From the NCBI RefSeq assembly GCF_019456655.1, contig NZ_CP080332.1, positions 5,934,504 to 5,998,503 of the forward strand: a DNA stretch of 64,000 nucleotides. The letters run 5' to 3'. Origin of the DNA: Mycolicibacterium diernhoferi (GTDB lineage Bacteria; Actinomycetota; Actinomycetes; Mycobacteriales; Mycobacteriaceae). Below, piece by piece: positions 18,070 to 24,844 of this stretch. Made by a program: the position numbers and the translations under genes. Position 1 is the stretch's first letter; each line of letters begins with the position of its first letter. The notes beneath the pieces are model-generated. The model searched no databases and was not told the origin of the DNA. It saw nothing but the letters and a program-made list of their open reading frames with translations.

Positions 18070-18405
18070 CTAGGGCCGGGGTTCGCCGGTGCGGATCATC
18101 ACCGCGTCGGCGGCGTCCACGGGGGCGGGCTGATGCATGATCTCGATCGACATCGCGACCATGATCAGTGAGTAGATGAGGTGCAGCAGATTGAGCGCAT
18201 CCTCGGGCAGGTCCTCGAGGGAGAACTTGTCGCAGTACTCGATGGCGTCTTCCAGCCGCGGGAAGAACGCATCGTAGAACGCCTGCATCTCACCCATCGT
18301 GCTGGACAACCGCTGGTTCCAGCGCTCGGTTTCGGTTGGCAGACACCAGGTATCGGCGAACTCCTCCAGTTCGGCGAACGCGCTCGGGAGTCGTTTGGCG
18401 GCCAT
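18070..18405 (-). CDS. Small Rieske-associated protein (copy 1), unrecognised family
   Basis: A 111-residue acidic, mostly helical protein of no family I recognise. It shares a clear pattern with the product at 23256-23576: WCLP, then RL.STM.EMQAFYDA, then YCDKFSL.D.PED..NL and a hydrophobic YS segment. Both copies directly follow a Rieske oxygenase gene; here the ATG overlaps the oxygenase stop (TGATG), so translation is coupled. This linkage suggests an accessory or small subunit. The conserved Cys of WCLP and YCDK might matter for folding or metal binding. Confidence 0.8.
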   Translation of the reverse strand: MAAKRLPSAFAELEEFADTWCLPTETERWNQRLSSTMGEMQAFYDAFFPRLEDAIEYCDKFSLEDLPEDALNLLHLIYSLIMVAMSIEIMHQPAPVDAADAVMIRTGEPRP

Positions 18406-19655
18406 CAGGGCTGCCCCACCCAGTCGACGACGACCTTGTGCAGATGCCGGACCAGGATCTCCTGATCGTTGACCGGGAAGTCGTCGATCACGTCGTACTC
18501 GAGGGCCGCCTGGGTACCGCCGAGCATGCCGGCGTCCTGCAACGCGAACTCCTTGAGCACCACCGCGGCCACCTCGTGCTCGATGCGTTCGCGCACCGTG
18601 CGGGCCGGCTGGAAGTAGGTGAACGCCTCGAACCGGTGGGTGTTGTAGGACGTCGGCCAGTACCGGTACAGCAGGTACCAGCCGCCGTAGATCAGGATCT
18701 CCAGGTTCGGGAAGATCTGGAAGTTACTGATCCCCCACGGCTCGATTCCGCCGGGATTCAGCCCGGCCGGGAGTTCCCCGAGATCCGGTGTGCGCCACGG
18801 CCCCACCAGCCCACTCTGGGTGGCCCGCTCGATCGGGTACATGTATTCCGGTGCCAGCAGCCAGCGCCGGGTGCCGGCGGTGGAGACCAGCCGGTGCGGG
18901 CCGTCGAGCTGGAAATGCCCGCAGGTGAAGCCGGCGCCGGGATTGCGTACCTCGGCCGGCACCTGCTGGGTGTGCAGGGACGGCACGTGGTAGTACTCCT
19001 GGAAGGCGTCGGCGAAGATCTTCCAGTTGCTGTTGTTGTGCGCCTCCCAGTCATAACGCTCGGTGAGCTTGCCGAACGGGTAGTCGTCCAGGCCGGTCAC
19101 CATGGGGCCGAGGAACTCCCGCAGGCTCTGGCGGGGCTGGTCATCGAAGTTGACGAACACGAAGCCGGCCCACACATCGCAGTGCACCGGCACCAGTCCG
19201 TAGTCCTTGGCGTCCAGGTCAAAATACTGGGCGTGGCCCGGGATGTGAACGAGGCTGCCGTCCAGCGCATATCGCCAGCCGCACTGCGGGCACACGAACT
19301 CGTCGACCTGGCCTGCTCCGGCTCCGGCTCCGGCTCCGGCTCCGGTGATCAGCTTGTTGCCGCGGTGCCGGCACTGGTTGTGGAATGTCCGGATCCGCTC
19401 ATCCGCGCCACGCACCAGGATCAGCGCCGCGTTGACGACCTCGATCTCCTTGAGCAGGTAGCTGCCGACCTGCGGCATCTCCTCGACCCGGCACACGTTG
19501 AGCCAGGCCCGTTTGAAGACGGCCTCACGTTCACGTTCGTAGAACTCCGGGGAGATGGAGTCCCGGAATGAGATGGGCCCGGTTCCCAGCTCCGGGTAGT
19601 GCTCGGTCCAGGAGCCCTCGACCGGCTTCTCGGCTTTCGCCCATTGCGTTGTCAT
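18405..19655 (-). CDS. Rieske-type ring-hydroxylating oxygenase alpha subunit (atypical cluster ligand)
   Basis: A 416-residue oxygenase with an N-terminal Rieske domain and C-terminal mononuclear-iron catalytic domain. The first ligand pair is Cys95 and His97 (CRHRGN), but the second is Cys122 and Cys125 (CPQCGW) where the family has Cys-x-x-His. The catalytic iron site is normal: Asp216, then His223 and His228 in EYYHVPSLH. The loop between the ligand pairs is a Gly-Ala run encoded by a hexanucleotide repeat. It takes electrons presumably from the ferredoxin reductase in the same operon to oxygenate an unknown substrate. A second family member is at 23579. Confidence 0.87.
   Translation of the reverse strand: MTTQWAKAEKPVEGSWTEHYPELGTGPISFRDSISPEFYEREREAVFKRAWLNVCRVEEMPQVGSYLLKEIEVVNAALILVRGADERIRTFHNQCRHRGNKLITGAGAGAGAGAGQVDEFVCPQCGWRYALDGSLVHIPGHAQYFDLDAKDYGLVPVHCDVWAGFVFVNFDDQPRQSLREFLGPMVTGLDDYPFGKLTERYDWEAHNNSNWKIFADAFQEYYHVPSLHTQQVPAEVRNPGAGFTCGHFQLDGPHRLVSTAGTRRWLLAPEYMYPIERATQSGLVGPWRTPDLGELPAGLNPGGIEPWGISNFQIFPNLEILIYGGWYLLYRYWPTSYNTHRFEAFTYFQPARTVRERIEHEVAAVVLKEFALQDAGMLGGTQAALEYDVIDDFPVNDQEILVRHLHKVVVDWVGQP
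19315..19344. repeat. Hexanucleotide tandem repeat (GCTCCG)5 inside the Rieske gene
   Basis: Five perfect copies of GCTCCG encode the alternating Gly-Ala loop between the two Rieske ligand pairs. Being in multiples of six, copy-number change would lengthen or shorten the loop without shifting the frame. Confidence 0.9.
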
Positions 19656-20399
19656 CTACATCACCGACCCTCCGTTGACCCCGAGCGTCTGCCCGGTGAT
19701 GAATCCGGCCTCCTCCGAACAGAGGAAGCCCACCGCCGCGGCGATGTCGTGCGGGGTGCCCAGGTGCCCGACCGGGATGCTCGCGGCGATCTGCTCGTTA
19801 CTCGGCAGGTGGCCGGCGGCCTGGCTGGCGTGCTGCATCGGTGTCTCGATACCCGATGGCGGAATGTTGTTGACCGTGATGCCCTTTCCGGCGTACTCCC
19901 GGGCCAAGGACTTGGTGAGGGTGAGCAGCGCCCCCTTGGACGCTGCGTAGTGCGCGGCGAACGGTGTGCCGCGCTGCGCACTCGAGGAGGAGATCATCAC
20001 GATCCGGCCCCACCCGGCGGCCACCATGTCACCCAGCGCGGCCTGGCAGCAGTGGAAAGTGCCGGTCAGGTTGACCTCGACGATGCGCGTCCACTTCTCC
20101 GGGGTGATCTCGGCGAAGGGCGCGTAGTCGAACAGGCCCGCGCTGGTGACCAGGATCGAGGTCGGCCCCAGCTCACTGCGCACCTTGGCGAAGGCGTCGT
20201 CGACCGCGGCGCGGTCCGAGACGTCCCCGGTGACCGCGATCGCGGTGACGCCCTGGGCCCGCAGATCCTCACTGACCCGTTGCGCCGCATCGGCATTCAG
20301 GTCGAACACGGCGATCTTGTGACCGCGGCGCCCCAGTTCGTGGCAGGTCGCCTCGCCCATCCCGGACGCTCCGCCGGTCACCACTGCAACCCGACTCAT
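19656..20399 (-). CDS. Short-chain dehydrogenase/reductase
   Basis: A 247-residue classical SDR: glycine motif VTGGASGMGE, Asp in AVFDLNADAAQ (NAD preference), Ser in ISSSSAQRG and YAASK at the catalytic site, closing with the family-typical GQTLGVNGG. It is probably the alcohol or cis-diol dehydrogenase of the pathway. The start is the ATG at 20399 with GAGGAG 6-11 bases before it; it lies 10 bases after the ferredoxin reductase stop and directly abuts the Rieske start. Confidence 0.9.
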   Translation of the reverse strand: MSRVAVVTGGASGMGEATCHELGRRGHKIAVFDLNADAAQRVSEDLRAQGVTAIAVTGDVSDRAAVDDAFAKVRSELGPTSILVTSAGLFDYAPFAEITPEKWTRIVEVNLTGTFHCCQAALGDMVAAGWGRIVMISSSSAQRGTPFAAHYAASKGALLTLTKSLAREYAGKGITVNNIPPSGIETPMQHASQAAGHLPSNEQIAASIPVGHLGTPHDIAAAVGFLCSEEAGFITGQTLGVNGGSVM

Positions 20400-23576: not shown

Positions 23577-23578
23577 CG

Positions 23579-24844
23579 TCACACCTGCACCGTCCTGCTC
23601 TGGTACTCCGCGATCCAGGCCGCGGTCTCCTTGTGCAGGTGACGCAGCAGGATCTCCTGATCGCAGTACAGGAACTCGTCGACCACCCGGGATTCGATGC
23701 TGGTCTGGGTGGCCTCCAGGGTGTTGGCGTCCTGCAGGCCGTACTCCTTGAACGAGGCCGCGGCGAGTTCCTGGGCAAGGCGCTCCCGCGGGGTGCGGGG
23801 CGCCGGGAAGTACAGCGTGCACTCGAAGGTGTGGGTGTTGAACGAGGTCGGCCAGTAGTGATAGGTCAGATACCAGCCCTGCCCCCAGAACAGGATGGTG
23901 AAGTTGGGGAACAGCTGGAACGAATCCAGGCCCCACGGATCGCATTTCGCGGGATTCAGGCCCTCGGGCATGGGGCCGAGATCCTGCTTGTCCCAGGGTC
24001 CGAACAGTCCGCTCTGGCAGATGTCCTCGATGGGCTTGCGCATCTCGGCGGCCATCTCCCAGGCCCGCACACCGGAGGTGCTCACCAGCCGATGCGGACC
24101 CTCCAGGCGGTAGTGCGGCGCCTCGAAGCCGGCCTGGGCGGCCGCCTTGGAATAGGCGGTGGGCGTCTGGTTCGCGTGCAGCACCGGTGCGTGATAGAAC
24201 TCCTGGAACGCGTCCATGTAGAGCTTCCAGTTCGCCTTCACCTCGGACCGGTAGGTGAACCGGGAGGTCATCTTGTCGAACGGGTAGCCGGCCAGGTCGG
24301 TGATCATGGGGCCCAGGAACTCGGTCAGCGACTGCTCGGGTTCCGCCGCGAAGTTGACGAAGATGAAGCCCTCCCACACCTCGCAGTGCACCGGCACCAG
24401 GCCGTAGCGCTCCTTGTCGAGGTCGAAGAACTCCTCCTCCTGCTGGACGTAGGTCAGGTTCCCGTCCAGGTCGTATCGCCACGCGTGGTATTTGCAGATG
24501 AACTGGCGGCACACGCCGCTGGTGTCCTCCAGCGGCATGTCGTTCCACACCAGCTTGTTGCCGCGGTGCCGGCACACGTTGTGGTAGGCCTTCACCTCGC
24601 CTTTGGTGTTGCGGCACACGATGATCGAGGTGTTGGCCGCCTTCATCTCCTTGGTGAAGTAGCTACCCTTGCGGGGCAGCAGCTCCACCCGGCCGACGTT
24701 GAGCCAGGCGCGTTTGAAGATCGCCTTGCGCTCGAGCTCGTAGATCTCGGGGCTTATCGAATCCTCGTAGGACACCGGCCCGGTGCCCAGTTCCGGATAA
24801 TGCTCGGTCCAGCTGCCCTCTGCCGGTTTCGGAAACCTCGCCAT
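23579..24844 (-). CDS. Rieske-type ring-hydroxylating oxygenase alpha subunit
   Basis: A 421-residue oxygenase with canonical Rieske ligands Cys91/His93 (CRHRGN) and Cys117/His120 (CKYHAW). Its catalytic iron motif has Asp211, His218 and His223 (DAFQEFYHAPVLH). It is paralogous to the protein at 18405 over its whole length, with shared N-terminal GSWTEHYPELGTGP and C-terminal LLRHLHK. It heads the operon Rieske - small protein - amidohydrolase - MarR. The ATG at 24844 is 30 bases from the shared palindrome; an upstream in-frame reading would cover the operator. Confidence 0.92.
   Translation of the reverse strand: MARFPKPAEGSWTEHYPELGTGPVSYEDSISPEIYELERKAIFKRAWLNVGRVELLPRKGSYFTKEMKAANTSIIVCRNTKGEVKAYHNVCRHRGNKLVWNDMPLEDTSGVCRQFICKYHAWRYDLDGNLTYVQQEEEFFDLDKERYGLVPVHCEVWEGFIFVNFAAEPEQSLTEFLGPMITDLAGYPFDKMTSRFTYRSEVKANWKLYMDAFQEFYHAPVLHANQTPTAYSKAAAQAGFEAPHYRLEGPHRLVSTSGVRAWEMAAEMRKPIEDICQSGLFGPWDKQDLGPMPEGLNPAKCDPWGLDSFQLFPNFTILFWGQGWYLTYHYWPTSFNTHTFECTLYFPAPRTPRERLAQELAAASFKEYGLQDANTLEATQTSIESRVVDEFLYCDQEILLRHLHKETAAWIAEYQSRTVQV

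Follow-up and report, generated by a model that had tools for sequence, protein, structure and literature searches.

Few bacterial oxygenases are as well studied as the Rieske enzymes, whose beta subunits, SnoaL/NTF2-like proteins with an alpha+beta cone fold, are larger than the partner protein described below. The accessible text of a 2025 review names only the alpha3, alpha3-beta3, alpha3-alpha'3 and alpha3-alpha3 forms of these enzymes (PMC12445004). CntA is described, in the portions of the literature at hand, as an alpha3 trimer in which electrons cross between subunits and reach the iron of the neighbour. Here we describe a gene cluster of Mycolicibacterium diernhoferi, located in a window of 64,000 nucleotides (contig NZ_CP080332.1), in which two Rieske alpha-subunit genes, A1 and A2, are each joined to a gene for a small acidic helical protein, S1 and S2, respectively. 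The system comprises a Rieske oxygenase and a new, obligate family of partner proteins; one line of the oxygenase has an altered Rieske site.

S1 (18070..18405, minus strand) consists of 111 residues, with a mass of 12.7 kDa and pI 4.3, and its ATG overlaps by one base the TGA stop codon of A1 (18405..19655, minus strand; 416 residues). S2 (23256..23576, minus strand) is a protein of 106 residues, 12.2 kDa and pI 4.1, whose ATG lies two bases past the stop codon of A2 (23579..24844, minus strand; 421 residues). The two small proteins are 52% identical across 106 aligned residues (E 3e-39) and have the EMQAFYDA and YCDKFSL motifs in common, confirming the first-pass annotation, which had described them as related products of genes coupled or adjacent to Rieske alpha genes. 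A1 and A2 are 53% identical, and both score above the Pfam cut-offs for the Rieske (PF00355) and Ring_hydroxyl_A (PF00848) domains, with 46.5 and 166.4 bits for A1 and 51.2 and 128 bits for A2.

The gene linkage between S and alpha is strict and specific in both directions. In an unselected test, 61 genomes were searched with an alignment of the alpha subunits and an alignment of S. The alpha scores split into two groups, at least 467 bits (79 genes) and at most 202 bits (at least 71 genes), and the S search returned, besides 79 full-length matches, two fragments that score 26 and 32 bits; the fragments, one at a contig start and the other a truncated copy in the M. diernhoferi genome itself, near 2.18 Mb, were excluded. 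All 79 full-length S genes pair one-to-one with the 79 high-scoring alphas, which belong to one clade, with the alpha first, on the same strand, and a gap of -1 to 104 bases as measured by match edges. No full-length S without an alpha was found in these genomes, and none of the 71 other alphas listed has an S beside it at E 0.001. The genome from which the window comes contains four full-length S genes, each directly 3' of an alpha, and six of the ten alphas found there lack an S within flanks of 1.5 kb, even at E up to 1. Since every full-length S of this genome and 79/79 in the 61 genomes directly follow an alpha, the adjacency is not a matter of chance. Near 2.18 Mb of the same genome, about 9.5 kb from its fourth intact pair, a C-terminal S-like frame without an alpha (L159:10959-11246, minus strand) looks like a truncated copy of S.

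A wider locus set, comprising the loci of named mycobacterial genomes, 40 regions picked for diversity from a survey of the class, the window and its own genome, yielded 211 distinct alpha-S pairs (213 rows, the window pairs having been entered twice) and one S fragment without an alpha. Two pairs per region are present in eight of the 40 regions, which lie outside the mycobacterial ortholog set (L160, L162, L164, L165, L169, L170, L182 and L197), and in L162 and L164 the genes follow each other directly head to tail in the order A-S-A-S. The distribution of S is patchy, as only 50 of 394 genomes of the class (12 of 137 genera) and 13 of 396 genomes of the phylum (4 of 236 genera) carry it.

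Members of the S family occur in both Actinomycetota and Proteobacteria, their spread outside the phylum being known from plasmids and from source names in the family search. Translated searches (tblastn) revealed S in twelve plasmid records, from Sphingomonas, Novosphingobium, Cupriavidus, Acinetobacter, Burkholderia, Variovorax, Paroceanicella and Rhodococcus; eleven of these and one plasmid found through its alpha were examined. Thirteen of the 14 plasmid S genes, which are mostly proteobacterial, adjoin an alpha, ten in the order alpha then S and three in the order S then alpha (L229, L230 and L236), and the link survives this reversal of gene order. In L239 the unit flanked by insertion elements consists of just two genes, alpha and S. 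Because the pathway contexts differ among loci, S appears to follow the alpha and not the pathway. The clusters of L232, L233, L234 and L236 hold, together with S, a gene annotated as NTF2-family or ester cyclase, and S is therefore not simply a replacement of the beta subunit. In Sphingomonas sp. NBWT7 the plasmid-borne alpha next to S is broken into two frames, annotated separately (L238:3702-4947, plus strand). On the plasmid of Cupriavidus necator C39 the S gene overlaps a cupin-like frame, and the neighbouring frames look disrupted (L235:5884-6824, plus strand).

S is a family unnamed in the protein-family libraries searched. In NCBIfam neither S1 nor S2 finds a match, even at E up to 1; S1 has no Pfam match of any kind and S2 only one below threshold (E 0.2, 12.7 bits against a cut-off of 27), and ten diverse plasmid-borne S proteins give nothing above the Pfam cut-offs. 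A search of PDB chains with the S1 sequence, at E up to 10, returned no match. The family is nevertheless large: S1 alone matches 1,225 of 1,231 scored candidates, a seven-row alignment matches 7,991 of 8,000, giving at least 7,991 clustered members, and a query set of plasmid-borne proteins, of which eight are proteobacterial and the other comes from Rhodococcus, matches 253 of 2,077. None of the 120 matches listed for each family search has a precomputed Pfam domain. Several UniRef entries label members of the family 'Xaa-Pro dipeptidase', a name that was probably transferred by mistake from the adjacent amidohydrolase. No description of the family was found in the accessible text of open-licence PMC papers, to which the literature search was confined.

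Across 74 diverse S sequences W20, R28 and E88 are invariant, and charged and aromatic residues are strongly conserved. An AlphaFold2 model of S1, built with the 74-sequence alignment, has a mean predicted local distance difference test (pLDDT) score of 90.7 and comprises four helices (residues 8-20, 25-34, 37-58 and 68-90), a loose C-terminal tail and no strand, and so lacks the alpha+beta cone fold. At E up to 1, searches of Pfam and NCBIfam with S1 and S2 gave no family of the beta-subunit or SnoaL/NTF2 type, and neither did a Pfam search with ten distant S proteins. In the first-pass annotation the small proteins were taken for an accessory subunit not yet described, or for a maturation factor, peculiar to this clade of oxygenases; the 79/79 pairing in both directions, the 211 pairs and the 13 of 14 plasmid genes support this, and the homologues proved to be neither mostly unlinked to Rieske genes nor members of a known unrelated family in the libraries searched.

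Beyond what had been noticed at first, the Rieske site of A1 is altered. In its cluster-ligand region (19281..19373, minus strand, computed from residue numbers; C95, H97, C122 and C125) the motif is CRH...CPQC, with C125 in place of the second histidine ligand of the expected CxH...CxxH; A2 has the canonical form (CRH...CKYH). In an alignment of 210 alphas, from loci found via S2-type genes and with one truncated alpha (L115) excluded, the four canonical ligands are present in 186 and altered in 24, all of the latter among the 79 A1-type rows, with none among 97 A2-type and 34 other rows. The altered forms are CxH...CxxC (5), C-R-R or C-P-R...CxxC (18, seven of which are CPRC...C(K/R)RC and occur in Mycolicibacter) and CRQ...CPRC (1). 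When A1 genes are found via S1 instead, seven of 21 are altered. The last ligand position is not always cysteine, since one of these seven, L015, has serine there (CARS). The mononuclear iron site is preserved: its N, E, H, H and D columns are invariant in all 210 rows, including A1 and A2. A run of GAGAGAGAGAG, derived from a six-base tandem repeat, lies between the halves of the A1 cluster motif (19311-19343, minus strand) and is absent from its close relative of Mycobacterium aurum (L079).

With the ligand columns removed from the alignment, the tree requires two state changes, which suggests two losses of the Rieske ligands; one loss followed by a return to the exact ligands in two rows seems less likely. 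Pairwise ratios of nonsynonymous to synonymous substitution rates (dN/dS) within the altered group are about 0.06-0.16 (26 comparisons), values that show purifying selection, which may be slightly weaker than in the canonical genes (0.035-0.07, three comparisons). All 24 loci with an altered A1 contain a canonical A2, and in the 61-genome set A1-S1 is accompanied by A2-S2 in 21 of 21 genomes, 19 of them with both pairs on the same contig within 12 kb.

Co-divergence of the cluster genes was analyzed by comparing protein distance matrices over 78 of 81 mycobacterial loci, three loci without pair 1 being excluded; partial correlations were calculated for twelve pairings, each corrected for the other six cluster genes. 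S2 and A2 show the highest value of the twelve (0.55, reached in 0 of 1000 permutations), against 0.12 for S2 and its other direct neighbour, the amidohydrolase. This co-divergence beyond that of neighbouring genes argues for a private partnership of S2 with A2. The value for S1 and A1 is 0.29 (0 of 1000 permutations as high), against -0.08 for S1 and its other direct neighbour, the TauD-type dioxygenase, and speaks weakly for a private partnership of this pair. There is no residual co-divergence between S1 and S2 (-0.02). A hetero-complex of A1 with A2 was also considered and finds no support in these data, with a correlation of 0.06 (242 of 1000 permutations as high). In the mycobacterial cluster each S seems to belong to its own alpha, S1 to A1 and S2 to A2.

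With moderate confidence, we propose that one clade of Rieske non-heme iron oxygenases has S as its own small accessory subunit. Added to the known alpha and beta, it would represent a third subunit type, which binds its own alpha and stabilises or shapes the alpha trimer or its substrate entry. In favour of this are the two-way gene linkage, which outlasts reversal of the gene order, the translational coupling seen in the window, the confidently predicted helical fold and the co-divergence of S2 with A2. That S and its cognate alpha are physical partners is likely; this binding, its stoichiometry and the catalytic effect of S are inferred. By analogy with CntA, the PaaE-like reductase of the gene cluster would take electrons from NAD(P)H and hand them to the Rieske cluster, from which they would reach the iron of the neighbouring subunit in the trimer. 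An A1 without Rieske ligands would have to use another electron route, work without electrons or be a different kind of subunit; it might borrow electrons, for example from A2 in a mixed complex like that of NdmA and NdmB, or perform some other job. A tight mixed complex of A1 and A2 is disfavoured by their lack of co-divergence. It is a tentative and rather doubtful idea that in several mycobacteria the A1-S1 pair is a Rieske oxygenase whose Rieske centre no longer functions: with its iron site kept and its cluster ligands lost or re-tooled in two lines, it would receive electrons from a partner such as A2, or directly from the reductase, with S as a third subunit type that aids the contact.

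Several observations weigh against an accessory subunit. The correlation of S1 with A1 is lower than those of S1 with the short-chain dehydrogenase (SDR; 0.37) and of A1 with the amidohydrolase (0.38), and the S gene of Cupriavidus necator C39 (L235) has no alpha within 6 kb. The model of a read-through alpha-S chain, made with the proteins of a relative, is only moderate (pLDDT 70.4; predicted template modelling score 0.70): the S part and the alpha core are fair, and the catalytic-domain stretch 211-285 is largely below pLDDT 50. Moreover, an assembly factor would give identical gene linkage. Such a maturation factor, which would bind the newly made alpha, help it to acquire iron or its iron-sulfur cluster or to form trimers, and then leave, agrees with a small, helical, acidic protein always coupled to its alpha, and the restriction to one clade fits a dedicated chaperone. 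It is nonetheless rather unlikely, as S has no invariant cysteine or histidine pattern of metal ligands, only W20, R28 and E88 being invariant, and S1 is retained beside A1 proteins that have lost the Rieske ligands, so insertion of the Rieske cluster cannot be the sole job of S.

Diiron monooxygenases have effector proteins, and S could by the same token be a coupling or regulatory protein that binds transiently and tunes electron transfer or gates the substrate. Its existence as a small separate protein tied to an oxygenase and the strong conservation of its charged and aromatic residues would suit this role; no Rieske system with such a protein was found, however, in the accessible parts of PMC12445004 or of the papers searched, and we regard the role as improbable. 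Least probable of all is that S is an independent pathway enzyme that merely shares the operon. The Cupriavidus S without an alpha and the frequent presence of amidohydrolase, SDR and TauD genes as neighbours could be cited in its favour, but S stays with alpha when all other neighbours differ, in both gene orders and as a two-gene unit between insertion elements. An accessory subunit remains the explanation that we prefer.

The complete cluster occupies 17205-24844 on the minus strand in the order A2, S2, amidohydrolase, MarR, reductase, SDR, A1, S1 and TauD-type dioxygenase, and its conservation was followed in 80 loci from named mycobacterial genomes. The amidohydrolase (21985..23259, minus strand; PF01979), whose start overlaps the S2 stop codon, is present in 80/80 loci with a median identity of 87%. 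The MarR-type regulator (21497..21949, minus strand) is found in 79 loci, and the SDR (19656..20423, minus strand) and the TauD-type dioxygenase (17205..18056, minus strand) are found in 77 each. The PaaE-like FAD/NAD/2Fe-2S reductase (20410..21423, minus strand), present in 56 loci, is the likely electron donor. An IS481-type transposase gene adjoins the cluster (15429-16463, minus strand; Pfam rve and LZ_Tnp_IS481).

The neighbouring genes of several loci, though not of all, including amidohydrolase, acetamidase/formamidase and asparaginase, suggest chemistry at a C-N or amide bond. Indole and skatole are reported in the accessible text to induce gene1684, a Rieske alpha of Acinetobacter piscicola p38 (PMC11434297); the p38 numbering 1684-1690 fits the gene order of L232. 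If S is indeed a subunit, many such enzymes may have been examined or expressed without a part that they need, and the A1 line offers a natural test of whether oxygenases of this type can function without the Rieske cluster.

Among described systems, it is the carnitine/stachydrine group to which the A1/A2 clade appears related, both by sequence and by predicted fold. CntA and stachydrine demethylase share about 20% identity with the clade alpha over the fold alignment, and the bridging glutamate of the CntA-like group is present in the clade and invariant in 210 rows. Neither alpha qualifies as GbcA (NCBIfam NF058607, cut-off 670 bits), with scores of 106.9 bits for A1 and 130.5 bits for A2, and the literature on CntA, in the portions available, mentions no S-like partner. 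The alpha3-alpha'3 caffeine demethylases NdmA/NdmB, in which two different alphas come together, are a possible model for A1 with A2 (PMC12445004), from which the mycobacterial pair differs in lacking co-divergence; S is not mentioned for NdmA/NdmB in the accessible text. In Phenylobacterium immobile the pyrazon oxygenase alphas PpoC1 and PpoC19 are, like A1, without the Rieske cluster consensus according to the available text, and their partner is a beta subunit of 21.5 kDa, unlike S (PMC7907043). Like the beta subunits of alpha3-beta3 enzymes, S is a second protein beside alpha and, as far as can be read from its sequence, without a redox centre of its own; it differs from them in being all-helical and, in the window, 106-111 residues long.

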